The notes below the pieces were generated by a model that worked only from the letters and a program-made list of their open reading frames with translations, had not been told where the DNA came from and ran no database searches. A program made the translations under genes and the position numbers. Below are positions 1 through 41,897 of a stretch of DNA of 64,000 nucleotides, piece by piece. Location of the stretch: the NCBI RefSeq assembly GCF_011682235.2, contig NZ_CP076718.1, forward strand, positions 996,608 through 1,060,607. Reading direction: 5' to 3'. Source of the stretch: Rhodocaloribacter litoris. Its GTDB lineage: Bacteria; Bacteroidota; Rhodothermia; Rhodothermales; ISCAR-4553. Positions within the stretch are counted from its first letter, which is position 1. Each line of letters starts with the position of its first letter.

Positions 1-776
1 GCCAGCTCGTTCACCAGCGCAATGTTCACGCTCCGGAAAATGTTCTCCAGCAGCTTCTCCATCTCGGCCACCTTCGGGCTCGAGACCCGGTGCACGTGCG
101 CCACGATCTGCGCCAGCGCCGTCGCCGCCACCTCCGTACAGGCGGCCGTCACCCCGCCCACGACCACCGGCGTGTTGGCCGTCGTGAACTGCCGGTTGCC
201 CGGGTCGATGCGCTCCGGGCTGAAGGCCAGGAAGTAATCCCGGCCCAGCACCAGCCCCCGCTCCCGGGCAACCCGCTCCAGGATCGGCTGCACCAGCCCC
301 TCGGTCGTGTTCGGGTACGTGGTCGACTTCAGCACGACGAGTTGCCCCCGGTGCAGGTGCGGTGCCAGCGCTTCGGTCGCCCTGCGGATGTAGGACGTGT
401 CCGGGTCCTTGTGCTCGGTCACCGGCGTGGGCACGCAGATGAAGACCACGTCGGCCCCGGCGAGCCCCTCGACGTGGTCCGCCGCCCGCAGGCAGCCCGT
501 CTCGACGAGACGGCGCACCAGGGCGTCGTCGAGGTCGGGGTTGTAGTTCTGTCCCGCGTTGAGACGCAGGACGCGTTCCGAATCGAGATCGATCCCCAGG
601 GTCCGGAAGCCGCGGCCGGCGTATTCCACCGCCAGCGGAAGCCCCACATACCCCAGACCAATCACCCCGATGACGGCTTCCCGGCGCTCCAGACGATCGA
701 GGAGCTCCCGGGCAGGAGCCGGGAGGGGGGCAGGCCGAACGCCATCATATACAAGTGTATCCGACTGGAAATGCAT
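1..776 (-). CDS. UDP-N-acetyl-sugar 6-dehydrogenase (WecC/WbpA/TviB type), 3' end beyond window
   Basis: Read on the minus strand from ATG at 776, the frame stays open to the window edge, so about 258 N-terminal residues are visible. It has a Rossmann motif VIGLGYVGLPLA near residues 37-48, the segment VFICVPTPV, then LKSTTYPNTTEG, FSPERIDPGN and a KLLENIFRSVNIALVNEL stretch. These are hallmarks of NAD-dependent dehydrogenases that oxidise C6 of UDP-HexNAc twice to give the uronic acid. The last motif is closer to WbpA/WecC enzymes than to UDP-glucose dehydrogenase. The catalytic cysteine region lies outside the window. With WecB at 8156 the likely product is UDP-ManNAcA, but UDP-GlcNAcA is also possible. 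A strong GGAGG lies about 30 bases upstream of the ATG, so the exact start is uncertain. Confidence 0.9.
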   Translation of the reverse strand, partial: MHFQSDTLVYDGVRPAPLPAPARELLDRLERREAVIGVIGLGYVGLPLAVEYAGRGFRTLGIDLDSERVLRLNAGQNYNPDLDDALVRRLVETGCLRAADHVEGLAGADVVFICVPTPVTEHKDPDTSYIRRATEALAPHLHRGQLVVLKSTTYPNTTEGLVQPILERVARERGLVLGRDYFLAFSPERIDPGNRQFTTANTPVVVGGVTAACTEVAATALAQIVAHVHRVSSPKVAEMEKLLENIFRSVNIALVNEL

Positions 777-816
777 CAGATAGCTCAAAGCAAGTGAATC
801 AAGGCAGCACCTCCCT

Positions 817-2010
817 CTAGGAAACGGACTCATACCGCTCGGCAACCGCCTTGCGCTCATCCCCGGATTCGATTTTCTCCGCTTCGTGTCTCAAATTCGC
901 CTCCCAGTGGGAAGATGCCTTTGTTTCCGAGACGGCGAAACGGCTCTGAATCTCGGGCCGCGTATACGGCTGGCGATAGACTTTGAGCCGGTTCAGCCCG
1001 ACGAACGAAAGAGAAAGCGCCAGTCCGAACAGCAAGAACCCCGTTGTCGGGGAGGCGACCGACATGAACACAGCTATCGTGCCAAAACAGGTTGCAACGG
1101 CATAGAGCAGGAGCACAGCCTGGCGCTGCGGCCACCGCCGGACCATGCGATGGTGGATGTGATCGTTGTCTGGAGCGAAGAGGGCCCGCCCGCTGAGCAG
1201 CCTGCGAATGATCGCAAATCCGGCGTCGAGCAGCGGCAACCCCATCACGGCCACCAGCGTCAGAAACGACAGCAGGGGATCCAGGTGCGCCTGCCCTTCC
1301 AGCGAATAGGCGGCGAGCATGAAGCCGAGAAAGAGGCTGCCCGAGTCCCCCATGAAAATGCGGGCCGGGTTGAAGTTGTAGAAAAGGAAACCGGCCAGCC
1401 CCCCGACCATGACCAGCGCCGGCAGCACAATGGCGGGTCCACCATGGAAGCTGAAGATCAATCCCAGGTAGGCGAAGGCAATGATCGAGACGCCGGCCGC
1501 CAGCCCGTCGAGCCCGTCGATCAGGTTGATGGCATTCATCACCCCCACGAACCAGAGCAACGTCAGGGGGATGGAGAGGAGCATGTGTTGCGCCGGATCG
1601 TCCCCCATGAAAGGCAGGCCCGAGACATCGATGCGGTAGCCTCCGCAGATCAGGGCATAGGCCACCAGGACCTGCACGGCGAACTTATGCCGGAAGCTCA
1701 ACCCGCGAATGTCATCGATGATGCCGGTAACGAGCATCACGAGCGCCCCGCCCCACAGGAGGGGAGACACCGGCTCCCATCGGAAGGAAAGGTAATCTTC
1801 GGAGAAATAGAGCAGCGCTATGCCGACCACATACCCGAAGGCGATCCCAACCCCCCCCAGCGACGGGACGGGGCGAGCGTGCAGTTTCCGCTCTCCGTCG
1901 GGCACATCTACCCACCCCTTGCGGATCGCCAGCCAGCGAACGACCAGCGTAAGAAGCAGCGTCGCTCCGAGCACCAGCGCGAAGATCCCCAGCAGAAAGA
2001 GGTACTCCAT
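817..2010 (-). CDS. UDP-HexNAc:undecaprenyl-phosphate HexNAc-1-phosphate transferase (WecA/TagO family)
   Basis: This 397-residue polytopic membrane protein of the MraY/WecA family has about ten hydrophobic segments. It carries IIDD (97-100), NAINLIDGLDGLAAG (159-173), FMGDSGSLFLGF (219-230) and the HIHHRMV loop (284-290). That His-rich loop is typical of WecA-type enzymes that use UDP-GlcNAc-like donors. The family transfers HexNAc-1-phosphate to undecaprenyl phosphate at the inner face of the membrane and so starts lipid-linked glycan synthesis. It lies about 40 bases upstream of the nucleotide-sugar dehydrogenase, probably in the same transcript. The C-terminal 60 residues are hydrophilic and cytoplasmic. 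This is the only initiating transferase in the window, so it is the best candidate to prime the repeat unit. Confidence 0.93.
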   Translation of the reverse strand: MEYLFLLGIFALVLGATLLLTLVVRWLAIRKGWVDVPDGERKLHARPVPSLGGVGIAFGYVVGIALLYFSEDYLSFRWEPVSPLLWGGALVMLVTGIIDDIRGLSFRHKFAVQVLVAYALICGGYRIDVSGLPFMGDDPAQHMLLSIPLTLLWFVGVMNAINLIDGLDGLAAGVSIIAFAYLGLIFSFHGGPAIVLPALVMVGGLAGFLFYNFNPARIFMGDSGSLFLGFMLAAYSLEGQAHLDPLLSFLTLVAVMGLPLLDAGFAIIRRLLSGRALFAPDNDHIHHRMVRRWPQRQAVLLLYAVATCFGTIAVFMSVASPTTGFLLFGLALSLSFVGLNRLKVYRQPYTRPEIQSRFAVSETKASSHWEANLRHEAEKIESGDERKAVAERYESVS

Positions 2011-8155: not shown

Positions 8156-9307
8156 CTATGGCGAGTTTGTAACGACTTCTGAACCTTCGAGCACCCCGGC
8201 CAGGACCTCCACGATGCGCCGGGCGGCCTGGCCGTCCCAGAGCGGCGGAATCCGCCCCGTTTCGTACACGCCGGCCCGCAACGCCGTCACGCACCGGGCA
8301 ATGCGATCGGAGTCGAGCGGCATCAGGGCGTTGGTCCCCAGCTCGATCGTGACGGGACGCTCGGTGTTCTCGCGGAGCGTCAGGCAGGGAACCTGCAGGT
8401 ACGTCGTCTCCTCCTGGATGCCGCCCGAGTCGGTCACGACCACGGCGGCGTGCTCCATCAGACGGAGAAATTCCAGGTAGCCCAGCGGATCGAGCAGGTG
8501 CAGGCGAGGGACGGCGGCCAGCCGGCCAGCCAGATCAAAGTCGGCGAAGCGGTTGCGCGTGCGCGGGTGGATGGGGAAGACGACGGGCAACTGTTCGGTG
8601 AGGGCTTCGAGCGTTTCGAGCAGCTTCTGCAGCCCTTCTTCCCGGTCCACGTTGGAGGGGCGGTGCATCGTCATGAGCACGTAGCCGCCGGGCTTGAGGC
8701 CAAGGTCCTCCAGGATGGTCGTCCGGGCGGCCTTCTCGCGGAACTGCACCAGCGCGTCGATCATCACGTTGCCGACGAAGAAGATCTTCTCCTCCGGCAC
8801 GCCCTCGGCACGGAGGTTGTCCAGCCCGCTCTGTTCGGTGACAAAGAGGAAGTCCGAGACGGCGTCGGTGGCGATGCGGTTGATCTCCTCGGGCATCGTG
8901 CGGTCGCCGCTGCGCAGGCCGGCCTCGACGTGCGCCACGGGCACATGGCACTTCGCCGCCACCAGGCTGCACGCCAGGGTCGAGTTGACGTCGCCGACGA
9001 CCACCACCAGATCGGGCCGCTCGTCGAGGACGATCCGCTCGAAGGCCACCATCACGCGGGCGGTCTGCTCGGCGTGCGTGCCGCTGCCGACGCCCAGGTA
9101 GACGTGCGGCTCGGGCATCTCGAGCTGGCGGAAGAAGATGTCGCTCATCCGGGCGTCGTAGTGCTGGCCCGTGTGGACGATGCGCGAGGCAAACGCCGGG
9201 TGTGCCTCGAAGGCCCGGTGCAGCGGCGCCACCTTCATGAAGTTCGGCCGCGCCCCGACCACGTTCAGCACTTTGATTTTGTCCCTGACTCCTTCGAAAA
9301 TGCTCAT
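8156..9307 (-). CDS. wecB: UDP-N-acetylglucosamine 2-epimerase (non-hydrolysing)
   Basis: This 383-residue protein starts at the ATG at 9307. It shows the family's VVGARPNFMKVAPL near residue 15, VHTGQHYDARMSDIFF, VVGDVNSTLACSLVA, HVEAGLRSGDRTMPEEINR, MHRPSNVD, and the substrate-binding segment TDSGGIQEETTYL. It interconverts UDP-GlcNAc and UDP-ManNAc in the cytoplasm. With the dehydrogenase at the left edge it would supply UDP-ManNAcA. It is the last gene before a strong terminator. An in-frame extension runs far upstream through the neighbouring glycosyltransferase but encodes only arginine/glycine-rich shadow sequence, so I reject it. Confidence 0.95.
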   Translation of the reverse strand: MSIFEGVRDKIKVLNVVGARPNFMKVAPLHRAFEAHPAFASRIVHTGQHYDARMSDIFFRQLEMPEPHVYLGVGSGTHAEQTARVMVAFERIVLDERPDLVVVVGDVNSTLACSLVAAKCHVPVAHVEAGLRSGDRTMPEEINRIATDAVSDFLFVTEQSGLDNLRAEGVPEEKIFFVGNVMIDALVQFREKAARTTILEDLGLKPGGYVLMTMHRPSNVDREEGLQKLLETLEALTEQLPVVFPIHPRTRNRFADFDLAGRLAAVPRLHLLDPLGYLEFLRLMEHAAVVVTDSGGIQEETTYLQVPCLTLRENTERPVTIELGTNALMPLDSDRIARCVTALRAGVYETGRIPPLWDGQAARRIVEVLAGVLEGSEVVTNSP

Positions 9308-9390: not shown

Positions 9391-10665
9391 TCATACCGCC
9401 TCGGCTTCGGCGGGTGCCCGCAACTCCGGTGCGGGTGCCGTGCCCGCGATGCGGGCGAGCAGGTCCGCATAACACCGCGCCAGCTTTTTCCGGTCGAAGT
9501 GCGCGTGCACGAACGCGTGGCCGCGCTCGCCCATCTGCGCGTGCAGCACCGGGTCGTTGCGCAGCCGGAGCACCGCCTCGACGAGCTCGCCGGCCTCCTC
9601 GGGCGTGATCGGGATGCCCGCACCCGCGGCCTCGATGATCGCCCTGGTCTCCCCTTCCACCCCCAGCACGATCGGCGTCCGCGTGACCATCGCCTCGAAG
9701 ATCTTCGACGGGATGACCGTCTTGAACAGGTCCGACCGCCTCAGGTGCACGACGCTCACGTCGGTCAGCGCCATCAGGTAGCGCACGTCCTCCTTGGGCA
9801 CCTTGTCCACCAGGCGGACGTTGGGCAGGTTGAGCTCGGCCTGCCGGGCTTCCAGGCGGGCCCGCTCGGCGCCGGTACCGACGACCATGAACACGACGTC
9901 CGGATCGGTGCACCGCTGCGCCGCCTCTAGCATCACGTCGGCGCGGTGCGCCATCCCGATGGTCCCGATGTAGGCGGCGACGAACTTGCCCTCGACGTCG
10001 AGGCGCTTCCGCCAGGCCGCCAGGCGCTCGGGGTCGAGCGGCTGTCCCCAGGCGTCGAGGTCCGCCCCGTTCTTGACGACCGTGATCTTCTCGCGCGGGA
10101 TCCCCCGGTTCGTGATGAACGCCTTGAAGGCATCCGTGACGACGACGATGTGGGCGGCGCGCTCGTAGAGGAACTGCTCGACGCGCTCGAAGAAGCGGAT
10201 GACGGCGTTCCGGCGCACCGCCCCGACGGCCACGACCGACTCCGGCCACAGGTCGCGCACCTCGAAAACGAACGGCACCCGCAGCTTCTTTCCGACCAGA
10301 TACCCGGCGATCCCGGCGAAAAACTGCGGCGACGTGGCCACGACCACGTCCGGCCGCTGCTGCAGGCGCCGCACGTGCCAGCGGGCCGAGAGCATGAAGG
10401 AGATGTAGCTGAGCGTGCGTTTGAGCACGCCTTCGTTCGCCGTGACGTACATCGGCACGCGGGTGACCCGGATGCCGTCGACCACCTCCGTGGCAAAGCG
10501 GTTGGCGTACCCGCGGTACACGCGTCCTTCGGGGAAGTGCGGGGCGCTCGTGAGCACCTCCACCTCGTGCCCGTCGGCCACCCACTGCTTCGCGTGCTCA
10601 TAGAGGCGGGTCGCCGGCGCGTTGACCTCGGGCGGAAAGTTGTTGCTGATAAAGAGAATGCGCAT
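9391..10665 (-). CDS. Family 4 glycosyltransferase (WbuB-like)
   Basis: This is a GT-B fold, family 4 transferase of about 424 residues. The N-terminus MRILFISNNFPPEVNAPATR and the segment FEVRDLWPESVVAVG are typical of WbuB-like fucosyl/amino-sugar transferases. The donor-site region includes VVKNGADLDAW, YIGTIGMAHRAD and VIPSKIFEAMVTRTPIVLG, with the usual lysine and glutamate. The ATG at 10665 gives the canonical N-terminus. A GTG nine codons earlier, with an AGGGA upstream, is an alternative. It is 83 bases upstream of wecB in the same direction, so it may use a HexNAc-type donor, but the sugar cannot be read from sequence. Confidence 0.92.
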   Translation of the reverse strand: MRILFISNNFPPEVNAPATRLYEHAKQWVADGHEVEVLTSAPHFPEGRVYRGYANRFATEVVDGIRVTRVPMYVTANEGVLKRTLSYISFMLSARWHVRRLQQRPDVVVATSPQFFAGIAGYLVGKKLRVPFVFEVRDLWPESVVAVGAVRRNAVIRFFERVEQFLYERAAHIVVVTDAFKAFITNRGIPREKITVVKNGADLDAWGQPLDPERLAAWRKRLDVEGKFVAAYIGTIGMAHRADVMLEAAQRCTDPDVVFMVVGTGAERARLEARQAELNLPNVRLVDKVPKEDVRYLMALTDVSVVHLRRSDLFKTVIPSKIFEAMVTRTPIVLGVEGETRAIIEAAGAGIPITPEEAGELVEAVLRLRNDPVLHAQMGERGHAFVHAHFDRKKLARCYADLLARIAGTAPAPELRAPAEAEAV

Positions 10666-10804: not shown

Positions 10805-12496
10805 CTATTCGGATAGACGTTCCAGTGAAAAACCTCCCTCGCATGGTGCCGGTGGATAACGCATCACGATCTGTGTGCAGGGATGAGCCTCTCCGAAATC
10901 AGGAAACCACTCGGCCGTTACCAGTTCGACTTCGGCGTCCGTCTCCAGGCAAACATCCACGTCCTCTCGTCGAATCAGCCACGTGTCCGCCTGCTGCTCC
11001 ACGCGACAGCCTGGATGCAACAAGAGCCGGGCTTCCACGTCTTGCCCGGCTCCTCCATGTATCTGGTCCCTCACCACGATTTTTTGCGGAGACACTTCAT
11101 ACCTTCGCCGGTGCACCGGCCGCCCGAGAAGGTATCTGTAGCCGTCATGCTCGCCGACAAGAATGAATCCTCCATTCCGTTCTTCATACTTGATACAGCG
11201 CACACGTGCCAGACGACCTACTCTGAATGCTCCCCAGAATTCACACTGATCCTTACCATCTATGGTAACCGTATTGTGTGCTTTCGTACTTCTGGAATAA
11301 TGCCTCCGTTCTCCGGGATTGTACTCATAGACCCCTGTATCCACGATTATGCGCTTACCGCCGATCGTCCACTCGAAAGAAAGAATGTCTCCATGACCAT
11401 GTGCAGGCAATTCTTCAGGAGCAATGATGCCGCAATCAACCAACACAAAATTCCCATCCCGAAAACCATAGTATCCGGCTTCTTTCAGTGCGAAGGAACG
11501 ACGTGGCGTCTTCCCTCGCCCGCCCAAATTCTGCCATACACGAAGACTTTCGTCCGGTGCAAAGGCCATGTTCAAACCACCGTCATTGAAAAGGCTGACT
11601 TTGCCGTCCGGATGGGTCAAATCTACCAGCACCTGTGCCATCTGATCCAGAACAGAACCCAGATGCTTCTTGAGTTCGCCCTCCTTCAATACGTAGTAAC
11701 ATTCGATCAGGTCGGCAAATACTTGTGCGTGATATGCCGGGGAACGTTCATAGTGCATTCCATCCGGCAGTATCTGCCGTGCCACTTCGCTTCGCAAAAG
11801 TTCTGCGCCCTTTTCATACCATTTGTCAGCTTCCCGAAGATTCCAGAATCTGCCGGCCCATAACAGGGCCTTGATATTCTTGATGAGATGATTGCCTCCG
11901 ATATCTAATTCAATGTTTTCATAGAGGAAACGCTGTTGCACATACAGCGAGATAAGCATACGCTTCCTGAAACTCTCCGGCCACCGTGTCCACCTCACGG
12001 CGTATTGCTGCATCCATACGACACAGCGGATGGAAAGCGCATAGCTGTTCCAGTTGTCGAGCCAGTATTTCTCCTGATACGGCAGCACCCGTTCGATCCA
12101 GTCGTCAATGACCGCCCTGCAGGTTTCATCCGACAGCGCTTCGAGGAACTCCATGTAGTGAAGGTTCAAAAGCCATAGACGGGTGCCGTATTGAAGCTCT
12201 TTCGGACGCCAGTCGAAGGGCAACTGGAACGTACGCGATTCGTTCAGGAACGTCAGAACGACACGATCTGCTTCTTCTCGCGCGAGTTGGGTCCGCGGTG
12301 CAAACAGAGGACGCGGCAGAGGTTCCCGAAGGATCAGTTCAGGAACCGGGGCTTCCAGCAACCGCCGCCGGTATCGTTCCGCGTGGCGAACCCGCCAGTG
12401 ACGGCGAAGCATCAGGTGCAGACGTGCCCAGAGTTGTTCCGGGCGATGATGCCACACCGTGCGCCAGAAACGCATCCACTCGTCAGGCGACTTCAC
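10805..12496 (-). CDS. Heparinase II/III family protein (putative uronate lyase)
   Basis: This 563-residue protein starts at a GTG at 12496 that overlaps the previous stop as GTGA. Residues 70-330 form the alpha-helical toroid (KYWLDNWNSYALS, GNHLIKNIKALLWAGRF, DGMHYERSPAYHAQV). The C-terminal beta-sandwich has HGHGDILSFEW and YSRSTKAHNTVTIDG, which match the heparinase II/III-like domain. It has no signal peptide, so it probably acts in the cytoplasm or periplasm as part of polymer biology rather than as a secreted scavenger. Such genes recur in bacterial exopolysaccharide clusters next to bi-domain oxidoreductases and WbuB-like transferases, as here. The conserved Asn, His and Tyr of the family appear to be present. 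The substrate is probably a uronate-containing chain. Base composition is lower in GC than its neighbours. Confidence 0.88.
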   Translation of the reverse strand: MKSPDEWMRFWRTVWHHRPEQLWARLHLMLRRHWRVRHAERYRRRLLEAPVPELILREPLPRPLFAPRTQLAREEADRVVLTFLNESRTFQLPFDWRPKELQYGTRLWLLNLHYMEFLEALSDETCRAVIDDWIERVLPYQEKYWLDNWNSYALSIRCVVWMQQYAVRWTRWPESFRKRMLISLYVQQRFLYENIELDIGGNHLIKNIKALLWAGRFWNLREADKWYEKGAELLRSEVARQILPDGMHYERSPAYHAQVFADLIECYYVLKEGELKKHLGSVLDQMAQVLVDLTHPDGKVSLFNDGGLNMAFAPDESLRVWQNLGGRGKTPRRSFALKEAGYYGFRDGNFVLVDCGIIAPEELPAHGHGDILSFEWTIGGKRIIVDTGVYEYNPGERRHYSRSTKAHNTVTIDGKDQCEFWGAFRVGRLARVRCIKYEERNGGFILVGEHDGYRYLLGRPVHRRRYEVSPQKIVVRDQIHGGAGQDVEARLLLHPGCRVEQQADTWLIRREDVDVCLETDAEVELVTAEWFPDFGEAHPCTQIVMRYPPAPCEGGFSLERLSE

Positions 12497-13317
12497 GCTG
12501 TGCTCGTGTTTGACGTCGAGAGGTACTGCCCCTGCGCGAGGCGGCGTGCCAGCAGTTCCTTGATGGCAGGGGCCATCACGAAGCACTGCCGGTGCTGCTC
12601 GGCGTGCTGAAGGGGTGGCGGCAACGAGGCCGGGGGATGGAGAACCGTTTCCAGCAGGGCACGCACGCCCATGGCCACACACCGGCGACGTAAGGTCTCG
12701 ATCGTATCCCCGGGGCGAACCGGCACCGGATGAGTGGAGATCACCCCCCCCGTATCGATCCCGCGGTTGATGAGATGAATCGTGACCGTGGGGGCATATC
12801 CCAGAAGCAGTGACCATTCACAGGCATTCATGCCACGAATTTCCGGCAGCGGACCGGAATGCGCATTCAGAATACGGCCTCTGGCTGCATCGATGATCGC
12901 CTCACGGAGGATACCCCCACCGCCGTATACCACCCAGTCCGGTTGCTTCTCGCGCACGAGTTCGACGGCCTCTGACTCATTGATCGAGGAGACCATCCGA
13001 TACGTCACATTCGTCTTGCGCGCCCAGGCACGCAGCGAACCGGCCCGGAGGCCCCACTCCTCCATCAACTCGGCGAGGTCATCGGTTCCTTCTTCGGCCA
13101 CTTCGGTATCCGCTCCCAGCAGACGAGGGATGGCAGTGCGAACAAAGCTTCCTCCTCGCTGCCGGATCAGTCCTCTCAGTCTCTTCCAGTTATACGGGCT
13201 GACAACGATGAGTCCTTCGATACGACATCCTCGCTGCTGCAACGCCTGGGCCAGAATCGATACGTGCGGGGCGCGATCAAATCCCGCCGTCAGTATTACA
13301 CGCGGTTCGTCCTTCAT
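12493..13317 (-). CDS. Formyltransferase-family protein (sugar N-formyltransferase-like)
   Basis: This 274-residue protein starts at the ATG at 13317, which overlaps the upstream stop as ATGA. It belongs to the folate-dependent formyltransferase fold. The catalytic triad is visible as N151 and H153 in RILNAHSGPLPEIRG and D188 in GIDTGGVI. The N-terminal 90 residues are not the standard methionyl-tRNA formyltransferase start, and there is no C-terminal tRNA-binding domain, so a sugar or amino-sugar substrate fits better. Its place between a six-hairpin protein and a heparinase suggests formylation of an amino sugar for the polymer. The acceptor is unknown. Confidence 0.82.
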   Translation of the reverse strand: MKDEPRVILTAGFDRAPHVSILAQALQQRGCRIEGLIVVSPYNWKRLRGLIRQRGGSFVRTAIPRLLGADTEVAEEGTDDLAELMEEWGLRAGSLRAWARKTNVTYRMVSSINESEAVELVREKQPDWVVYGGGGILREAIIDAARGRILNAHSGPLPEIRGMNACEWSLLLGYAPTVTIHLINRGIDTGGVISTHPVPVRPGDTIETLRRRCVAMGVRALLETVLHPPASLPPPLQHAEQHRQCFVMAPAIKELLARRLAQGQYLSTSNTSTA

Positions 13318-14456
13318 GCTTCTCGTTCGAGGCGTTCCATGAGCAGCATCAGGGCATCGGCGTGGAATTTGGCAGCCCAGTTGGGATAGCGTAGGGCCAT
13401 GTAGCGCCCCCACACCGGCCGGGAACCGGCGATGCCCCCACGTATCCCGCCATGCGGGTGACGCAACGACTGCGTCGAACAGACGTAATCGACCAACTTG
13501 CAGGCCGCATTAACCAGACGAAGGTCTTCCGATCGCGCCTCGTATTTGAGCAGGCAGATGGCCGTCTGCACGTTCCCCGTCAGGCAGGAGAAACGGTCAT
13601 CTTTCCTCCAGGCCTCGTCGTAGGCCCCGGCAAGCCTGCCCCGGTACAGTTCGGCCTGCCGGTAGAGACGCTCCAGCGCCGTTTCGGTCGGTGCACCGTA
13701 CGTTTTCCAGTCATCGAGCAGGCGAGCACTTTCCAGCAACCCCCGCAGGGTATACGCAATCGTGTGCGTGAACGCCGGCCGCTCCGGATCAAAGCCCCAG
13801 CCCTGAATCACTCCGTTGGCCCGGCGTCGCGACAGAATACGATCCAGGACACGCACCGCCGCCGCGTGAACCGGCTCGTCGCCGGATCGCTTCCACACCT
13901 CCAGCATCGGCCAGGCGACCCTCGTGTAATAGGAGGGATTGAAACCGTCCCGGTAGTTTCCCTGCTCCCATTCCCCTTCACCATTCACACCCTGCGCCAG
14001 CCAGCGCGCGCCCGCTCTGGCCGCATCGAGCCAGACGGCATCCTCCGTTTCGTCGAACAATGCGCAGAGTCCCAGCAAAATCTGTCCTGTGTTGAAGATA
14101 CTGGGATTCGGCCGCGCGGGCGGATGGGTTCCCCCGTGCCAGTACCCTCCTTCATCCTGAATACCGAGCAGCCAGTTGCCCAGCCCCATGGCACGCTCAC
14201 GCGCCTCCGAGGCACCCGTCACGCGCGCATAGTGCAGCAGGGTTGGAATGATGTAGCCGGTAGTTTCCGGATACGGCGGCGCCCACCGCCCCCAGACTCC
14301 GAAATAGGCACAGGAACCGCCCTTGCCATGGTCGATTGATCGATAGAGCCACGCTACCGTGGCGTCGAGGTGCGTTTTATAACGCTTCAAAGCAGGCCAT
14401 TGCGCTGTGTCTGCTTCCTGCCTGCCATGTGCTTCTACTACCGCGCTCGCGTGCAT
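13314..14456 (-). CDS. Six-hairpin (alpha/alpha barrel) polysaccharide-associated protein
   Basis: This 380-residue protein starts at the ATG at 14456, 11 bases after the upstream stop. It has repeated helical hairpins with aromatic and acidic residues at loop positions (WGRWAPPYPETTGYIIPTLL, WLLGIQDEGGYWHGG, SIFNTGQILLGL, YYTRVAWPMLEVWK), as in six-hairpin glycosidases and related proteins of exopolysaccharide clusters. No signal peptide is seen, so it is probably cytoplasmic. The gene is coupled to the formyltransferase by ATGA. It might act as an epimerase-like, hydrolase or quality-control factor, but function cannot be assigned. A frame extension upstream to 14996 lies inside the oxidoreductase gene and is not coding. 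Confidence 0.8.
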   Translation of the reverse strand: MHASAVVEAHGRQEADTAQWPALKRYKTHLDATVAWLYRSIDHGKGGSCAYFGVWGRWAPPYPETTGYIIPTLLHYARVTGASEARERAMGLGNWLLGIQDEGGYWHGGTHPPARPNPSIFNTGQILLGLCALFDETEDAVWLDAARAGARWLAQGVNGEGEWEQGNYRDGFNPSYYTRVAWPMLEVWKRSGDEPVHAAAVRVLDRILSRRRANGVIQGWGFDPERPAFTHTIAYTLRGLLESARLLDDWKTYGAPTETALERLYRQAELYRGRLAGAYDEAWRKDDRFSCLTGNVQTAICLLKYEARSEDLRLVNAACKLVDYVCSTQSLRHPHGGIRGGIAGSRPVWGRYMALRYPNWAAKFHADALMLLMERLEREA

Positions 14457-14467
14457 ACCAGAGCCGT

Positions 14468-16660
14468 TCAATTCTCGAATATTTTCTCCATTCGATACGG
14501 CGTCAGCTCGACGGGCTGCCCGGAGGCCAGCGACTGCCGGGCCGCAAAGACGGCCTGCATCCCGTTGACCAGTTCGTCGAACGGGATCGGCGCGGCGCCC
14601 TGCGTGCGGAAGGCTGCGACCGTCTCGGCCAGTTGGCGGGCCTGGCCCTTGTCCTGGTTCATCGCCTTCTCCCGCTTCGTCGCACCGCCGCGGGTGATCT
14701 CCAGCCGCCGGAAGTCGTCGAGGACGGCCACCGTGCCGCCGCCGTAGACCTCCAGCCGCTCCTTCGGCGCGGCCTTGTCGCCCACGGTGCTGTAGGCCAG
14801 CGTCCCCACCGAGCCGCCGTCGAACGTGAGAGTGATGACCACGTTGTCGTGGTCGGCCAGGTCGGCGCGGTGGAGGGCCAGCGCCTGCGCGTAGACCCGC
14901 ACGGGCCGCTCGCCGGAGAGGTACTGCATCAGGTCGATGAAGTGGCACATCTCCCCGACGAGCATCCCCCCGCCCTCGTCCGGCTCGTGGAGCCACGTGG
15001 AGGTAGGAATGGCCCCGCTGTTGACCCGGTAGATCATCTGCTTCGCCCCCGCCGGCAGGGCCTCCCGCATCGCCGCCACCATCGGCGCGAAGCGGCGGTT
15101 GAGGCCCACCATCAGCCCGACGGGCCGCTTCGCCAGCGCCGCCTCGTAGGCTGCCTTCACCGCCTCGAGCTGTTCCTCCGAGACCACCATCGGCTTCTCG
15201 ACGAAGACGTGCTTGCCCGCTTCGAGCGCCCGCACGGTGAAGTCGGCGTGGGTGCTGTGGCGCGTGGCGATGAAGACCGCGTCCACATCCGGATCGTCAA
15301 GGACGGCCTGCAGGTCGGTGGTGCAGTACGCGAAGCCGAACTTGTCCGCCTTTTGCCTGGCATTGAGGCCGGTGGCCGTGACCAGCCCGGCGAGCGCAAC
15401 CCGGTCATCCTTCTGCAGGTGCGGCAGCAGGTGGAGCGCCGCGTAGTTGCCGGCTCCCACGAACCCGACGCCGAGGCGATCCTTCGCCGTGTGCGCCGAG
15501 GCCGGCTTCACCCGCACCACGGGCACCTGCGGGCGGTCGACGTCGTACGTGAGCACGATCCCCACGTACGGCTCCTTCCCCTCGCTGATCAGTTCGTAAG
15601 CCTCCAGCGCCCGGTCGATGGGGAAGCGATGGGTGGTGAGGGGCTTCACGTCGAGGTAGCCGCGGACCATCAGGTCGAGGACGGCCTCCATGTTGCGCTG
15701 CTCGGTCCACCGGACGTAGTCGTACGGGTAGTCGATCCCGCCCTCCTCGTACGAGGGGTCGTACCGCCCCGGCCCGTACGACATCGAGATCTTGACCTCG
15801 AGTTCCTTCTTGTAGTAAACGTCGCGCGGGATGTTCATCCCGACCGCCCCGACCGCGATGACCTGCCCCTTCCGACGGGTGATCTCGCCGGCCAGCTCGA
15901 TGGGGCCGTTGCTCTTCGTGGCCGCCGTGATGAGCGTGTAATCGGCACCCCGCCCCCGCGTGAACCGCTCAACGGCGGCCACCGGATCCTCCTGCGAGGA
16001 CACGACCCCGGTGTCCATGCCCAGCTCGAGGCCGAGGGCCACCTTCTTCGGATCGAGGTCGAGGCCGAGGACGCGGCAGCCGCCTGCGCGCAGGAGCTGC
16101 ACCGTGATCAGGCCGATGAGCCCCAGCCCCACGACCACCACGTTGTCCCCCAGTTCGGGGCGGGCCAGGCGCACCCCCTGCAGGGCGATGCTCGCCACGG
16201 TGGTGTACGACGCCTCCTCGAACGAGACGCCATCCGGGATGAGGGCCACCAGGTTCTTCGGCACCACGTTGATCTCGGCGTGGTTGGCGTACCCGGCCCC
16301 GGCGATGGCCACCCGGTCGCCCGCCTTGAAGCCCGTCACCTCGCGCCCCACCGCCTCCACGATACCGGCGGCGCTGTAGCCCAGCGGCATGGGCTTCTCC
16401 ATCTTCGACATCACGTTGCGGAAGGTGTTCAGGAGGCCCTCCTTTTTCACCTTCTGCAGCACCTGCCGCACGAGGTCCGGCCGCGCCTGCGCCTTGCCGA
16501 CCAGGCTCTTCTGCGCCAGGTCGATGAGCATCTTCTCCGTCCCGGCGCTGATGAGCGAAGCCGCCGTGCGCACCCGCACCCCGCCGGCCCAGTCCGCCGG
16601 AGGCGGCACCGTCTCCAGCCGCGTCTCTCCCGATTTTATGTTCTGAAGGATCTGGTACAT
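14468..16660 (-). CDS. Bi-domain oxidoreductase: zinc-type dehydrogenase fused to Gfo/Idh/MocA
   Basis: This 730-residue fusion starts at the ATG at 16660 (MYQILQNIKSGE). Residues 1-390 are a medium-chain dehydrogenase with LGYSAAGIVEAVG, FKAGDRVAIAGAGYANHAE and the nucleotide-binding VVVVGLGLIGLITVQLL. Residues 400-730 are a Gfo/Idh/MocA domain with VGFVGAGNYA, FIATRHSTHADF and the catalytic-type VEKPMVV. This architecture recurs in exopolysaccharide and O-antigen clusters and presumably performs two redox steps on a nucleotide sugar, for example oxidation followed by reduction or epimerisation. Its 5' end is duplicated at 20021-20368. A roughly 300-base gap separates it from the upstream acyltransferase. 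Confidence 0.92.
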   Translation of the reverse strand: MYQILQNIKSGETRLETVPPPADWAGGVRVRTAASLISAGTEKMLIDLAQKSLVGKAQARPDLVRQVLQKVKKEGLLNTFRNVMSKMEKPMPLGYSAAGIVEAVGREVTGFKAGDRVAIAGAGYANHAEINVVPKNLVALIPDGVSFEEASYTTVASIALQGVRLARPELGDNVVVVGLGLIGLITVQLLRAGGCRVLGLDLDPKKVALGLELGMDTGVVSSQEDPVAAVERFTRGRGADYTLITAATKSNGPIELAGEITRRKGQVIAVGAVGMNIPRDVYYKKELEVKISMSYGPGRYDPSYEEGGIDYPYDYVRWTEQRNMEAVLDLMVRGYLDVKPLTTHRFPIDRALEAYELISEGKEPYVGIVLTYDVDRPQVPVVRVKPASAHTAKDRLGVGFVGAGNYAALHLLPHLQKDDRVALAGLVTATGLNARQKADKFGFAYCTTDLQAVLDDPDVDAVFIATRHSTHADFTVRALEAGKHVFVEKPMVVSEEQLEAVKAAYEAALAKRPVGLMVGLNRRFAPMVAAMREALPAGAKQMIYRVNSGAIPTSTWLHEPDEGGGMLVGEMCHFIDLMQYLSGERPVRVYAQALALHRADLADHDNVVITLTFDGGSVGTLAYSTVGDKAAPKERLEVYGGGTVAVLDDFRRLEITRGGATKREKAMNQDKGQARQLAETVAAFRTQGAAPIPFDELVNGMQAVFAARQSLASGQPVELTPYRMEKIFEN
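16313..16660 (-). repeat. 5' end of oxidoreductase gene, duplicated at 20021-20368
   Basis: By eye the two copies differ at about 17 of 348 positions, roughly 95% identity. The match ends abruptly at 16313/20021, which marks a recombination breakpoint in the second copy. Confidence 0.9.
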
Positions 16661-19716: not shown

Positions 19717-20368
19717 TCAATGAGCCAAGTTCACCTCAGTCCTGCTTCCATTTCCGGTCGAGAGTTGCAGGCCGAAGGTATTACCATGATCCAGTAGTTC
19801 CTGGTACAACCGACCAGCCACCAAGCGATGTCCCAGCGTGTTGGGATGCGTATCCCAGGGCGCCAGGTGAATTCGGTCGCGGTCATAGGTGTCGTACATT
19901 CCTTCCAAGCTCAAGGTAATAAAACCTTCCTCACGGGCCAGGCGGGACAAGTACGCAAACTCACCGCTGCGAGTTGACCGACCCGCCAGCGGCAAAAAAA
20001 CCCATACCGGTGCCCACCCTCCGGTCGCCCGCCTTGAAGCCCGTCACCTCGCGCCCCACTGCCTCCACGATGCCAGTGGCGCTGTAGCCCAGCGGCATGG
20101 GCTTCTCCATCTTCGACATCACGTTGCGGAAGGTGTTCGGGAGGCCATCCTTCTTCACCTTCTGCAGCACCTGCCGTACGAGGTCCGGCCGCGCCTGCAC
20201 CTTGCCGACCAGGCTCTTCTGCACCAGGTCGATGAGCATCTTCTCCGTCCCGGCGCTGATGAGCGAAGCCGCCGTGCGCACCCGCACCCCGCCGGCCCAG
20301 TCCGCCGGCGGCGGCACCGTCTCCAGCCGCGTCTCACCCGATTTTATGTTTTGGAGGATTTGTTGCAT
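19717..20368 (-). pseudogene. Chimeric relic: truncated oxidoreductase 5' end joined to an SGNH domain 3' end
   Basis: From the ATG at 20368, two bases after the sulfotransferase stop, the frame reproduces the first roughly 116 residues of the bi-domain oxidoreductase. It breaks off at GFKAGDR and ends at a stop near 19961. In another frame, 19717-20020 encodes the C-terminus of an MBOAT-SGNH-like protein (PVWVFLPLAG, LAPWDTHPNTLGHRLVAGRLYQE), homologous to but diverged from the intact protein at 16958. The junction is at about 20020/20021. The simplest reading is deletion of everything between an upstream oxidoreductase copy and a second SGNH gene. Neither half can be a working enzyme. Confidence 0.85.
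20021..20368 (-). repeat. Second copy of the oxidoreductase 5' end
   Basis: This copy is about 95% identical to 16313-16660 by eye. The 5' boundary coincides with the start codon region and the 3' boundary is abrupt. Confidence 0.9.
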
Positions 20369-20370
20369 AT

Positions 20371-21195
20371 CTATTTCTTTTCATGAAGCACACCGATTTC
20401 TCCACCCAGTCTCACCATCGTTTCGCCACACACGTCATCAATCAATTTTCTCACCTCATCTTCAGAATAAACATCAAGAATATCCAATACATATTTTCGT
20501 CTATTTTCATGGACATTCGTTTCACACAAAGAAACACCCTGCAATCCAACAAAATCCCACACAACAGCTAAGTTGCCCTTGAGAACACTTTCCAAGTCCA
20601 ACACAAGCAATTTATTTTTAGGCACATTTTCCAAAACAAATTGATTATGACTAACCCAATATTCTAAATAGGGACGCAACCCATCAATGCCATTTTTCAC
20701 ATGGAATGCATCACAATGAAACTTCCTTTGATACCACTCACTCCACCAATTATCTCTTTTTGTAGAAACACTCTTGTTTATCATTGACCGCAACCATTTC
20801 ATAGGATCTCTTGTAGTCAAAATGAACTTGGATTCTTCAAACAGATCAAGCAACACAGGAGTGAGAGGGTATAAATAATGAGAAGATTCCATCTCCAAAG
20901 ATAGAAACCTATCCCTTCCTATAAGCATCTTTTCTATAGTCTTACGATCAAATCTACCTTCTTCAAAGTCAGTTACCAACTTCAAAGTAGGCCGGGTAAG
21001 AGGCTCATGTGCTGCTCTGCACACCCTTGCAAAAAGAGCAGCCAGACTTTTCGTGCCACTACGTGGTGCACCAACACAGTACACTTGAAAATTTCTTTTT
21101 TTGACAGGACAAAATTTTCCTATCCTAAAAACAAATTCCATTATTCTAGAACTGAAAAGCATTCTATTTTTTGCAATCATATTTTCTTCAAACAT
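20371..21195 (-). CDS. Sulfotransferase family protein (AT-rich gene)
   Basis: This 274-residue protein has a PAPS-binding loop VYCVGAPRSGTKSLAALF near residues 38-55 and a second nucleotide-binding segment FILTTRDPMKWLRSMIN near 125-141. An EMESSHYLYP segment sits between them. These fit a cytosolic-type sulfotransferase moving sulfate from PAPS to a hydroxyl, here presumably on sugar. The gene is strikingly AT-rich relative to its surroundings and ends two bases before the relic at 20368. The start at 21195 is the first ATG; later methionines at residues 6, 12 and 19 are possible. The base composition indicates acquisition from another lineage. Confidence 0.85.
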   Translation of the reverse strand: MFEENMIAKNRMLFSSRIMEFVFRIGKFCPVKKRNFQVYCVGAPRSGTKSLAALFARVCRAAHEPLTRPTLKLVTDFEEGRFDRKTIEKMLIGRDRFLSLEMESSHYLYPLTPVLLDLFEESKFILTTRDPMKWLRSMINKSVSTKRDNWWSEWYQRKFHCDAFHVKNGIDGLRPYLEYWVSHNQFVLENVPKNKLLVLDLESVLKGNLAVVWDFVGLQGVSLCETNVHENRRKYVLDILDVYSEDEVRKLIDDVCGETMVRLGGEIGVLHEKK

Positions 21196-21203
21196 TATCT
21201 AAT

Positions 21204-22190
21204 CTATCGCACTTGTCTCCAGCCAATATTTTTCTTATGCAAAGCCCATCCATACTCATCTTTCTCAAAATAGCTCCCTCTTTTCAGAGTATCCCACAGA
21301 TGCAATATAACATGACCTAGCGTAGCATATCGACGCCCACTATAATAAACAGGATCGGCAATTTCCTCACTCATGTTAGCGGAGTTAAGATGCATTTTAT
21401 TAGCTTTAGCCCATCTTGCCAATTGGAAATGACGGTATTGATCTTCACCAAATAAAACTGACGTGTCTATTCCACCACTTTCTGCCAACACTCTTTTTCG
21501 AACAAACTGATTTGAACCTGACCAGCAGCTATATTTACTTGTTCGCTTCAACTTCAGAGCAAGAATATGAATTAACCGATAGCTCCAATGTGCATGCTCA
21601 ATGACGGCACCGGTAGACACCCCCACCGTACGCGGATGGGCTTCTAAAAAGCGATAGGCCGTTTGAAACACCGTTCCAGGCCTCAGCAGATCCTCTTCCC
21701 TCTTGATGGGCGGCACCACGCGAACATCTCCGTCTGACATCCAGATGTATTCGGTATCAGGATGTGAGGCCGCCAGCCCGGCTGCCCGGGCAAACGGTGT
21801 CCCTTGCTCTTTACACAGCACATATCGAGCCCCACAGGCCTGAATAACATCTCGCGTGCGATCGGTGGAGTTGTTATCTACAACGATAAGCTCTGCCAGT
21901 CCCGGCGGACAATCGAGCAGCGTATACGAGAGAAGTGTCGGAATGAGTTCACGCTCTTCGTTGTACGCAACCAGCGCAATCGAAACGCGCGGAGATTCAC
22001 TCCGGCCAAATTTTTCTTCGATCCGCGTCCGGATAGGTGCGCAGAATTGCCACAGTTCATTGTCTGTCAACGCATCGAGTGGGAATCCTCGGCCCTTCAT
22101 GCGCTGCCTGACACCTTCAATACTCAGAAAGTATCGAAGGTAATCTTCGTACTGCCAGGTTCTCCAGTTTCCAGGGTCCGGTCGTTTCAT
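21204..22190 (-). CDS. Family 2 glycosyltransferase
   Basis: This 328-residue GT-A transferase starts at the ATG at 22190, overlapping the upstream stop as ATGA. It has SIALVAYNEERELIPTLLSY near residue 70, LIVVDNNSTDRTRD, the DxD-like WMSDGDVRVVPP, and FGEDQYRHFQLARW as the catalytic acidic segment. An 80-residue N-terminal extension precedes the catalytic domain. The 5' half is GC-rich and the 3' third (below about 21600) is AT-rich like the adjoining sulfotransferase, so a composition boundary falls inside the gene. The donor sugar cannot be inferred. Confidence 0.88.
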   Translation of the reverse strand: MKRPDPGNWRTWQYEDYLRYFLSIEGVRQRMKGRGFPLDALTDNELWQFCAPIRTRIEEKFGRSESPRVSIALVAYNEERELIPTLLSYTLLDCPPGLAELIVVDNNSTDRTRDVIQACGARYVLCKEQGTPFARAAGLAASHPDTEYIWMSDGDVRVVPPIKREEDLLRPGTVFQTAYRFLEAHPRTVGVSTGAVIEHAHWSYRLIHILALKLKRTSKYSCWSGSNQFVRKRVLAESGGIDTSVLFGEDQYRHFQLARWAKANKMHLNSANMSEEIADPVYYSGRRYATLGHVILHLWDTLKRGSYFEKDEYGWALHKKNIGWRQVR

Positions 22191-22840
22191 GACAAAACGC
22201 CATTTGCATCGAAGGAGTAACCAAAATAGCTCAGATCCGAAGCGTATACATCAGCTATGATCTGAGCCGTCTCGTCATCGTAATACGTCCGGTAGTCTTT
22301 GCGCCGGTGCGAGCTGTTCTGATGGGGAAGTTGTCGTTCAACACCGATACGCCTGCACACCTCGGCGAAGTCCGCCTCGAACCGTTCGAAGCGCCCTACA
22401 TAGTCGACCAGTTGTTTCCCCTCCAGATCCATAATCCATTCCGTCTGAGGCGCAAAATGCAGGGGCTTGGATATGTATCTAGGATTCCGATCGACAAAAA
22501 CCAGTCGCACCCACGAACGAAAGTCAATATTGTCCTCTTCGAGAAAATCCTGACCCGTCTTTTTCAAATAGGCATAGTGGGATACGGCTTTATCCCAGGG
22601 ATTGCGCACGAAAGTGAACGTAAACTTTGCACTCCAGACATCGAACCCCACTTCTCTTCGCTTCTGCAAAGCCGTTTTGTGCTCATAGAGACACCCCAGA
22701 GCCGTCTCGATACTCCGTCCGCCGGTTTTGGGGATATGAATGAACAGGTAGTTCTGGAAATAGCGCTCTCGCAGTCGCCAGTACACCCTAGTCCCTTTGA
22801 GGACGACCTTTCGCAGTCTCGGGTAAGCTCGAAGATTCAT
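22187..22840 (-). CDS. Sulfotransferase family 2 protein (carbohydrate type)
   Basis: This 217-residue protein has the PAPS loop LFIHIPKTGGRSIETAL near 33-49 and the 3'-phosphate segment FTFVRNPWDKAVSHYAYLK near 75-93. It closes with SYFGYSFD, a typical C-terminus of the Sulfotransfer_2 family that includes carbohydrate and heparan 2-O type enzymes. It is coupled by ATGA to the glycosyltransferase downstream, suggesting sulfation and chain building are coordinated. It has no transmembrane segment, unlike animal Golgi relatives. Confidence 0.9.
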   Translation of the reverse strand: MNLRAYPRLRKVVLKGTRVYWRLRERYFQNYLFIHIPKTGGRSIETALGCLYEHKTALQKRREVGFDVWSAKFTFTFVRNPWDKAVSHYAYLKKTGQDFLEEDNIDFRSWVRLVFVDRNPRYISKPLHFAPQTEWIMDLEGKQLVDYVGRFERFEADFAEVCRRIGVERQLPHQNSSHRRKDYRTYYDDETAQIIADVYASDLSYFGYSFDANGVLS

Positions 22841-25151: not shown

Positions 25152-26663
25152 TCAGACACCGGATCGTGCAGGCGACGCTTCCAGGACCGGTCCGCCGGCC
25201 CGCTTCGTTTCGCGCCGGAACTCGCTCCCGTACGCCCTCATCGTGCCGGCCGTCACGTAGGCCAGGCTCAGGACGAGCCAGACAAACAGCCCGTTCCCCC
25301 CGATGGCGAACAGGATGGCTTCCCCCATGTTCACCAGCAGGGCCGCCGTGACCATCCAGGCCAGCGGAAGGGTTCCCCGGATAAAGACCGGCCACAGCAA
25401 CGTGGCGAGAAACAAGACCAGCAGCATCGCACCGGCCACCCCGGTTTCCTCCAGCACGGCGGCCGGCTGAAACCCTTTTTCCACACTGGCGCTGACGGGT
25501 ACCCCGAACGGTCCATACTCCACCCGGGCACCGGCCGGATCGGAAGGCACACCGAGTCCGATGCCCGTCACGGGCGCCCTGCGGAAGTTGTCCATGGAAC
25601 GTTCGATCAGGGCACCCCGGGAATCCTCCAGGGCCGTCGTCACGTCCTGTGCGGCCTCGTCCTTGAGCAGAAACGTCACGATTCCTTCCGAGAGACGAGG
25701 ACCGTAGACGTAGCCGAAGGCCGCCACGGCCAGCACGCCCAGCGCGATCACGGGCAGGTTGAAGGCACGCCGTATGTGCGGCAGCCAGGTGCGGGTTTTG
25801 AGCAGGCCGGCGATCACCACCAGCACCCCGGCCAGTACGAGCGCCAGCATGCCGGTACGCGACTGCGAGAAATAGATGCCGGCCCAGCCGGCGGCGACCG
25901 TCAACCAGAGCAAGGGCGACCGGAGCCGGTCGAAGAGCACCCGGCCGGTCACGTAGGCCGTCAGAATGGCCGTCATCGGCCCGTAGGTCTGCGGGTGGGT
26001 CAGGATCCCCTGAAAGCCGACGCCGTTGCGCGCGTAGGCATACTGGGGCAAAGCGTAGAGGGGCAAACTGCCCAGGATGGTAAAAACGGCCAGCGTGAGC
26101 AACCAGGCCTCCCAGTAACGGGCCAGGTGCCGGGTGCGGTACAGGGCCACGAGACCGGTCCCTACGCCGAGAAAGAAGGAGATCGCCTTGAAAACGGAAA
26201 CGGTCGGCATCCAGCTGACGACCAGTCCCAGGAAGACCAGGGTGACCGTGAGCACCACCAGGGCTCCGAACGCCGGCGGCAGGGCCTCGTCGCTGAAAAG
26301 GCTGTCCCAGATCGTGCGCCCGGCGGCGGCGGCCAGTACCACCCAGCGCAACAGGGAGATGTCCACCGGCACCAGGGCCTTGTTGATCATGATGGCCAGC
26401 GCCAGGATGAACAACGCCTCGACCGTCTGCCGGGCTCCCCGCAAAGCATGCAGCGCTGCGCCAATCAAGACGATCTCACCACCGAACGGCATCACGGCCG
26501 CAAAGGCGGTCAGTCCCACGGCCCAGGCGAGCACATGCCACAACACCGGCGCCGTGCGCCACCGCTGGAGAAGACCAGGCTGCCCCTGCCCGTCCGTGTC
26601 TGGCTCAGGCCGGCCGGAATACGGCACGATCGTGCGTGTGGATGACGGAGAAAATTGTCTCAT
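25152..26663 (-). CDS. O-antigen ligase/polymerase-like membrane protein (Wzy candidate)
   Basis: This protein of about 503 residues has a dozen or so hydrophobic segments and a large periplasmic loop (about residues 335-405) carrying DSRGALIERSMDNF and TGIGLGVPSD. YFSQSRTGMLALVLAG precedes the loop. These fit the Wzy_C/O-antigen ligase family (PF04932), which includes polymerases and WaaL-type ligases. It is the only such protein in the window, so polymerising lipid-linked repeats at the outer face of the membrane is the likely job. The start may instead be a GTG at 26687. Confidence 0.85.
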   Translation of the reverse strand: MRQFSPSSTRTIVPYSGRPEPDTDGQGQPGLLQRWRTAPVLWHVLAWAVGLTAFAAVMPFGGEIVLIGAALHALRGARQTVEALFILALAIMINKALVPVDISLLRWVVLAAAAGRTIWDSLFSDEALPPAFGALVVLTVTLVFLGLVVSWMPTVSVFKAISFFLGVGTGLVALYRTRHLARYWEAWLLTLAVFTILGSLPLYALPQYAYARNGVGFQGILTHPQTYGPMTAILTAYVTGRVLFDRLRSPLLWLTVAAGWAGIYFSQSRTGMLALVLAGVLVVIAGLLKTRTWLPHIRRAFNLPVIALGVLAVAAFGYVYGPRLSEGIVTFLLKDEAAQDVTTALEDSRGALIERSMDNFRRAPVTGIGLGVPSDPAGARVEYGPFGVPVSASVEKGFQPAAVLEETGVAGAMLLVLFLATLLWPVFIRGTLPLAWMVTAALLVNMGEAILFAIGGNGLFVWLVLSLAYVTAGTMRAYGSEFRRETKRAGGPVLEASPARSGV

Positions 26664-26782
26664 GCCGATACGTTCGTTCCCGGACACCCAGCCTTGTCAA
26701 ACACCATACCAGTCACCATGTTCATCTGTACGCACCGCCCGTTCAGTCCACCCCTCCGTCGCTTTGGGACACCACCCAAGCC

Positions 26783-41230: not shown

Positions 41231-41897
41231 CCGTCCCAGTCAAAATGCTTTCCGATCAACCTGAAGAGCGCTTCATTGGGCTCGCGAAAGCGCTCATACA
41301 GCATCTCATGTTCCCTGGTACGTTTTCGCTCGTAATTGCCCCGATTTCGAACACGGACGTCGGCAATGGGGCGAGGTTCGAGATCCAGAAACCGAGACAC
41401 TTCATCCACGACCTGTTGCGGATTCGAGAGCATTACTTCACTCTGCACAACGTATACCTGTCCTCGATCGAACAGTTCGAAATACCGCTCTAACTGCCTG
41501 GCATAAAGACCACGTGCCACATAGGAATAAGCATAGAATGCATGACTATGATATTCAGGATCTTCCAGCATTCGTTCCTCTTCCCCGGCCGTGCGTTCGG
41601 CCTCTTCCGCCAGGGCTTCGGCAAACGAAAGTTCTTCGAATCCTTTTCGCTTCGTATGTTGATAGTGTGAGTAGGCACGATCTACAGGATTACGAAGCAC
41701 CGCAATAAGTTTTACATCCGGCAGGTTCTCATGAATCCGCTTTGCAACGACTGGATGGAACAAATACGAAGGACTCGCCTCCCCCGTCACACGGGACCCA
41801 TGCACATACTTCAGAGGAAAGAAGGTTCGATACCAGAGTAGCCCTTTCTTGTAATGCCGGTCGAAGAAATGCACCTCTTTCCGCAAAGCCGGTAAGA

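Follow-up and report, generated by a model that had tools for sequence, protein, structure and literature searches.

The 64,000-nucleotide stretch of the Rhodocaloribacter litoris genome that we analysed (contig NZ_CP076718.1; hereafter the window) carries, within a large polysaccharide locus, a run of four tightly coupled genes encoding a bi-domain oxidoreductase (OR), a six-hairpin protein (SIX), an N-formyltransferase (FT) and a protein of heparinase II/III fold (HEP). We propose, at roughly even confidence, that the four belong to a pathway in the cytoplasm, probably associated with the membrane, whose product is a rare N-acetylhexosaminuronic acid, inverted at C5 and destined for an exopolysaccharide. 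A biosynthetic role is well supported: HEP very probably acts in synthesis and within the cell, and we lean modestly towards its being a C5-epimerase, while a C3-inverting role for OR, with N-acetyl-L-galactosaminuronic acid (L-GalNAcA) as product, is put forward with less assurance. The argument is built on gene order, co-occurrence, fold, active-site conservation and the lack of a signal-like segment in HEP, each of which was observed directly.

HEP contains the PF16889 and PF07940 domains, both above cut-off, and its predicted structure (predicted local distance difference test 95.4) matches heparinase III (4mmi) over its full length at Z 35.9, this and other uronate lyases being the nearest solved structures. 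The model also matches human dermatan sulfate epimerase 1 (DS-epi1, 6hzn; Z 20.5, root-mean-square deviation 4.3 over 473 residues, 15% identity), which shares with HEP the (α/α)6 toroid, the β-sandwich and an H-x-H loop and works in synthesis, but which acts on polymer in the Golgi (accessible part of PMC8006597). This match by itself shows no function, toroid and β-sandwich being common to lyases too. In a residue alignment covering 43 of 83 HEPs, N202, H203, Y255, H366, H368, D370 and H407 are invariant (43/43). Aligned with heparinase III, HEP keeps the active-site residues GNH, Y, H and H. The second His of the H-x-H-x-D motif is kept in HEP and is Gln in the aligned heparinase III (PL12) sequences; in DS-epi1, His450 and His452 share one loop and His452 binds manganese (PMC8006597, same part), a loop to which H366 and H368 were matched by motif, not by superposition. 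Heparinase III/HepC is the best relative of HEP in fold and sequence alike, yet these enzymes are degradative, whereas HEP is longer at its N terminus by about 47 residues (1-47, helical and outside the heparinase III match) and scores 82 bits against the NCBIfam HepC (heparin-sulfate lyase) equivalog, far below its cut-off of 700.

No export signal was seen in HEP from hydropathy, no dedicated predictor having been used: the maximal 15-residue mean within the first 45 residues is -0.21, whereas the genome's remaining pair of PF07940 proteins reaches N-terminal maxima of 2.17 and 2.54. The family as a whole has a median of 0.55 and a maximum of 1.31, homologue start codons being approximate. 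The description of HEP as a lyase-fold protein without a signal peptide, given in an initial annotation of this DNA, is thus borne out, and a secreted degradative lyase was set aside for want of a signal-like segment.

Two published gene pairs, likened to the window by description and not by sequence, bear on where such proteins function; the statements below reflect the accessible portions of the cited papers. PA14_23420 and PA14_23430 of Pseudomonas aeruginosa PA14 form the zbdP-hepP operon, encoding a protein with medium-chain dehydrogenase/reductase (MDR) and Gfo/Idh/MocA parts followed by a heparinase (PMC5732420). As in the window, the fused gene lies immediately upstream of the heparinase II/III gene, but the two are eight bp apart with no SIX or FT between them. 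Both lie within the PA14 O-antigen cluster and are listed as needed for nematode killing (PMC1794565), the cluster holds two predicted 6-dehydrogenases by locus number (PMC12654532), and the O-antigen is composed of L-GalNAcA, N-acetyl-D-quinovosamine and L-rhamnose (PMC2997053). HepP was published as a heparin-degrading virulence factor, 28 ug of the recombinant protein clearing heparin on plates as heparinase III does, an assay without product analysis (PMC5732420). Separately, hepP is mutated in three ceftazidime-resistant mutants, together with orfN/wbpL (PMC10187892), which fits a role in lipopolysaccharide synthesis. In V. vulnificus YJ016, a zinc-binding-dehydrogenase gene (VV0357) and a heparinase-like gene (VV0358) are both capsule-essential, deletion of either abolishing capsule and complementation restoring wild-type phenotypes; the authors regarded VV0357 as a membrane dehydrogenase, suggested a heparosan- or alginate-like capsule and proposed a lyase role for VV0358 (PMC6037467).

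HEP might instead be a genuine lyase, one that edits wrongly assembled uronate polymer, or clears it, while synthesis proceeds, in the manner of AlgL for alginate but on the cytoplasmic side, a reading to which its full-length heparinase III match with retained active-site positions, the heparin clearing by HepP and the view of the VV0358 authors all lend weight. We nevertheless consider it unlikely: HEP lacks a signal-like segment while the window encodes a Wzy_C protein (25152-26687), and Wzy-made polymer forms in the periplasm; loss of VV0358 abolishes the capsule; genes for a glycosyltransferase and for an epimerase of sugar nucleotides are tightly paired with it; and its HepC score lies far under the cut-off. 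The suggestion of the initial annotation that HEP may be epimerase-like and work during synthesis is the best reading, given the DS-epi1 fold and the H-x-H loop, with the reaction itself as the part that we infer.

A heparinase alignment was run against 84,980 prokaryote genomes and returned 517 relatives, of which the best 80 loci were analysed, so that the counts describe near relatives and not every heparinase-fold gene; loci on short contigs were scored as misses. A GT4 glycosyltransferase adjoins HEP in 64 of the 80 and is found somewhere in the locus in 69. The locus includes OR in 46 cases (adjoining HEP in 32) and a 2-epimerase in 38, while SIX and FT occur in four. Where at least 9 kb was available on both sides (n = 32), the corresponding numbers are 29 for GT4, 21 for OR, 17 for the 2-epimerase and three for SIX-FT. 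The order SIX-FT-HEP is kept in L013, L014, L016 and L018, and OR is also present only in the last, from Glycocaulis albus; the full four-gene set was seen nowhere but in this locus, among these best 80, and in the window. On a quickly built tree of 83 HEPs, with the long-branch rows L009 and L101 unsure, the window falls inside a 13-row subclade (Shimodaira-Hasegawa-like approximate likelihood ratio test 100), and SIX-FT presence amounts to three label changes. The widespread unit is thus HEP with a WcaI-family GT4, commonly accompanied by OR and a 2-epimerase, and SIX-FT is an accessory pair inserted within a single subclade of HEPs. The conserved block claimed by the initial annotation holds for OR, HEP, GT4 and the epimerase but not for its four genes as a set, whose key partners GT4 and 2-epimerase lie just outside it. 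The neighbourhood survey that it called for confirmed HEP-GT4 adjacency and the frequent presence of OR, and failed to do so for SIX-FT. Its idea of one biosynthetic unit handling a nucleotide sugar stands, and HEP is found beside genes for sugar nucleotides and transferases across many phyla.

The association of HEP with OR was also seen among 59 related genomes, our own excluded (E-value limits 1e-10 for HEP and 1e-60 for OR): five have both, one HEP alone, one OR alone and 52 neither (Fisher p = 7e-6). The lone OR adjoins a 2-epimerase close to a contig end, and after the lone HEP come genes for an NAD-epimerase, a WcaI-family glycosyltransferase, an XrtA-type polysaccharide deacetylase, a formyltransferase and a 2-epimerase. 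A chance neighbourhood was set aside on this p value and on that for 2-epimerase class against WecC (p = 3e-7, below). We likewise find it improbable that the four genes are adjacent merely through the mosaic nature of polysaccharide loci, with no pathway in common: their reading frames overlap, the SIX-FT-HEP order is maintained in four loci and OR and HEP co-occur, which together outweigh the patchy distribution of SIX-FT on the HEP tree and the local shuffling indicated by an OR remnant and segmental duplication in the window. HEP-GT4 pairs were also encountered on plasmids: L100 (Enterobacter pEhoE1-2) is a small HEP-GT4 cluster with wecC, flanked by IS26, and five of 5426 genomes of E. 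coli have an identical HEP-GT4, plasmid-borne every time.

The genes around HEP point to a supply of sugar acids. The window's nucleotide-sugar 6-dehydrogenase, the likely source of the uronic acid, scores 261 bits against the UDP-ManNAc dehydrogenase model (cut-off 459). In L013 and L016, WecC and WecB directly precede SIX-FT-HEP, the WecC scoring 563 bits against that same cut-off; Enterobacter and Citrobacter plasmids have HEP-GT4 together with wecC or wecB-wecC but lack an annotated OR; and in one relative (G008) a dehydrogenase immediately precedes OR. The 2-epimerases beside HEP form two classes, one WecB-like and accompanied by WecC in 9 of 11 loci, the other that of the window and accompanied by WecC in 0 of 27 (p = 3e-7). 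This split would be expected for two routes to a single uronic acid of D-ManNAcA (N-acetyl-D-mannosaminuronic acid) type, although a WecC encoded farther off fits equally, because the window's own dehydrogenase sits 10 kb away. The window 2-epimerase scores 336 bits against 8sxv (UDP-2,3-diacetamido-2,3-dideoxy-glucuronate 2-epimerase), 313 against 4neq (UDP-GlcNAc 2-epimerase) and 177 against 1vgv (E. coli WecB); by sequence score it is nearest the first type among solved structures. Elsewhere, the genome has two nucleotide-sugar dehydrogenases (L093, L094) about 1.96 Mb apart, with equal PF03721 and near-equal NCBIfam scores, which suggests that they arose by duplication.

OR consists of an MDR half (ADH_N/ADH_zinc_N) fused to GFO_IDH_MocA with its C-terminal domains, all above Pfam cut-offs. 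In an alignment covering 29 of 40 ORs, Lys489 (in an EKP motif), His573 and Asp576 of the Gfo/Idh/MocA half are invariant (29/29), corresponding to the EKP lysine and downstream His/Asp of UDP-HexNAcA 3-dehydrogenases of WbpB/WlbA type; against the equivalog of a related enzyme, the archaeal UDP-GlcNAc 3-dehydrogenase, OR scores 70.8 bits, under its cut-off of 450. The MDR half has S38-x-G40-T41-E42 and G94-Y95, invariant in the 29 homologues, at the presumed Cys/His ligand positions of zinc alcohol dehydrogenases, and therefore appears zinc-free. The WbpA-WbpB-WbpE-WbpD-WbpI pathway includes three enzymes that act on UDP-HexNAcA, namely a 6-dehydrogenase, a 3-dehydrogenase of the Gfo/Idh/MocA family and a 2-epimerase; the window has these three kinds of enzyme in common with it, OR differing in its second dehydrogenase domain. 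Alternatively, HEP could eliminate and OR could reduce the resulting 4,5-unsaturated sugar to a uronic acid that is 4-deoxy or remodelled in some other way. Both the OR-HEP pairing and the inclusion of C=C reductases in the MDR superfamily, with quinone reductases among the OR matches, are compatible with such a scheme, to which we attach little credence since HEP occurs without OR in 11 of the 32 full loci and the PA14 O-antigen, as described in the accessible part of PMC2997053, has no 4-deoxy sugar.

FT exceeds the PF00551 cut-off and keeps the N-x-H...D catalytic residues in 5/5 sequences, in agreement with its initial description as an N-formylation enzyme. A deacetylase-FT pair in L126 suggests, by analogy, that its substrate would be prepared by N-deacetylation and then N-formylated. 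A WbpB/WbpE-type amino-sugar route to that substrate was set aside, no aminotransferase family being found by Pfam among the 50 open reading frames (ORFs) scanned in the window. SIX had no match in Pfam, NCBIfam or PDB-sequence searches; its predicted structure is an (α/α)6 barrel, which makes the six-hairpin label apt, closest to 3wkf (cellobiose/N-acylglucosamine 2-epimerase type; Z 33.6, 352 residues, 13% identity) and then to the GH88 unsaturated glucuronyl hydrolase 3wiw (Z 31.5). In an alignment of ten sequences, which takes in all the SIX homologues found except the three most distant (L111-L113, where H231 is not kept), E64, H231, E242, K363 and D367 are invariant; H231 is the only invariant His, compared with the catalytic pair of N-acylglucosamine 2-epimerases.

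SIX also occurs, at about 41% identity, on two haloarchaeal plasmids; in Haladaptatus it follows HEP at a distance of 89 nt, among genes that include wecB, a nucleotide-sugar dehydrogenase and GT4. On haloarchaeal plasmids a sulfatase-family gene also adjoins SIX and/or HEP, in a biosynthetic setting (L114 8805-13065; L115 16470-19161). Agl32 of Halobacterium salinarum is a glucuronate C5-epimerase of a short glycan with a 2-epimerase-like helical fold (accessible part of PMC13308652), and it is the reported fold, not sequence, that likens it to SIX. One could thus argue that SIX is the C5-epimerase of the operon and that HEP does something else, as the 2-epimerase-superfamily fold of SIX and its Haladaptatus neighbourhood would allow; with SIX missing from 76 of the 80 HEP loci (a figure that counts those on short contigs), however, this seems to us quite improbable.

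These data lead us to a model that retains HEP as the epimerase. The 6-dehydrogenase and 2-epimerase would first provide a UDP-D-HexNAcA of D-ManNAcA type, whose C3 OR would oxidise at one dehydrogenase site and re-reduce at the other, inverting it. HEP would then abstract H5 beside the carboxylate, as heparinases do, and the proton would return on the opposite face; with O4 of the sugar free, as on a nucleotide sugar or at the tip of a chain, a glycosidic leaving group would be missing, and C5 inversion would take the place of cleavage. The neighbouring WcaI-family GT4 would transfer the inverted sugar or cooperate with it, FT would attach the N-formyl group and SIX, with its 2-epimerase/GH88-like fold, would be an accessory working with FT or HEP. 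We infer all of these reactions and their order, and HEP could act before or after lipid transfer. By Fischer projection, C5 inversion of D-ManNAcA gives the L-gulo acid (L-GulNAcA) and inversion of both C3 and C5 gives L-GalNAcA. WcaI- and WbuB-type enzymes use L-fucose-type (L-galacto) donors, which would suit GT4 as the transferase for such a sugar. GulNAcA, in all likelihood the L form, is a constituent of the V. cholerae Vibrio polysaccharide, and its origin from D-ManNAcA by inversion at C5 has been suggested, with the enzyme unnamed in the accessible part of the report (PMC3901696). Literature searches, with most subscription journals outside their scope, returned no work that connects heparinase-like genes with the making of L-GalNAcA or L-GulNAcA and nothing relevant on the fused oxidoreductase by name or on heparinase with exopolysaccharide/PEP-CTERM; the accessible portions of the L-AltNAcA cluster literature (P. 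shigelloides O17, WbgV) name no C5-epimerase and do not mention a heparinase.

Several points weigh against this pathway. OR is missing from the 11 full loci noted above and its presence does not follow 2-epimerase class; DS-epi1 His205, the carboxylate partner, has no obvious match in HEP, which has the invariant Asn202-His203 instead; the link to L-GalNAcA depends on one strain of known structure; and HepP cleared heparin. In the accessible account of PA14, moreover, biofilm of the zbdP insertion mutant was normal or better and that of the hepP mutant was not (PMC5732420), which does not resemble a single shared pathway.

Re-reading of the minus strand confirmed the initial coordinates and junctions: OR and SIX are 11 nt apart, SIX and FT overlap by ATGA (13317-13314) and FT and HEP by GTGA (12496-12493), and the operon continues beyond HEP with GT4 and then the 2-epimerase (Table 1).

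Table 1. Genes of the HEP operon and associated features, in window coordinates
Feature	Coordinates	Strand	Basis or remark
OR, bi-domain oxidoreductase, 730 aa, ATG start	16660..14468	minus	ORF call, Pfam
SIX, (α/α)6-barrel protein, 380 aa, ATG start	14456..13314	minus	ORF call, predicted structure
FT, sugar-type N-formyltransferase, 274 aa	13317..12493	minus	PF00551, 59.9 bits
HEP, heparinase II/III fold, 563 aa, GTG start	12496..10805	minus	Pfam, model, PDB matches
GT4, WcaI-family glycosyltransferase	10665..9391	minus	downstream of HEP
Non-hydrolysing UDP-sugar 2-epimerase	about 9280..8156 (start codon approximate)	minus	TIGR00236 over cut-off
Nucleotide-sugar 6-dehydrogenase, 501 aa, continues past window start	1..860	minus	PF03721, TIGR03026 over cut-off
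Truncated second OR 5' end, pseudogene remnant	19937..20368	minus	residues 1-144, 82% identity, one stop

The OR remnant includes a 300-nt direct repeat with 96% identity to 16313-16612, and a duplicated-looking stretch lies beside the OR copies, before or after them; the region appears to have undergone segmental duplication, one copy of OR having decayed. The surrounding locus encodes glycosyltransferases, the Wzy_C protein and six minus-strand sulfotransferase-domain ORFs above Pfam cut-off (20371-21195, 22187-22840, 32240-33247, 40217-41230, 41227-41886 and 47201-48274), accompanied by pyruvyl- and carbamoyltransferase genes, and its product is probably a sulfated, much-decorated polymer. 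An asparagine-synthase-like protein above the lasso-peptide cyclase cut-off (L098:5026-7113, minus strand) is encoded about 1.5-3.6 kb outside the window start, close to an MsbA-like ABC transporter, and a lasso-peptide cluster possibly abuts the polysaccharide locus there. An Rfam scan of the whole window gave 0 matches.

Across many phyla, loci for capsule, O-antigen and exopolysaccharide contain genes labelled heparinase or alginate lyase. It is possible, and we advance this more guardedly than the assignment of OR, that a heparinase-fold intracellular C5-epimerase and a two-site C3-inverting dehydrogenase convert UDP-D-GlcNAcA/ManNAcA to L-GalNAcA (to L-GulNAcA with HEP alone) widely in bacteria and archaea. 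If so, such labels would be wrong in kind across many loci for capsule and O-antigen, and direct tests would become possible of the steps, so far without a named enzyme, that lead to L-GalNAcA in PA14-type O-antigen and perhaps of those that lead to GulNAcA in the biofilm polysaccharide of Vibrio. The pathway would yield enzymes for sugars that are hard to synthesise and would explain the origin of rare sugars in some bacterial coats, a lyase fold having been recruited for synthesis in prokaryotes in parallel with the human dermatan sulfate pathway.

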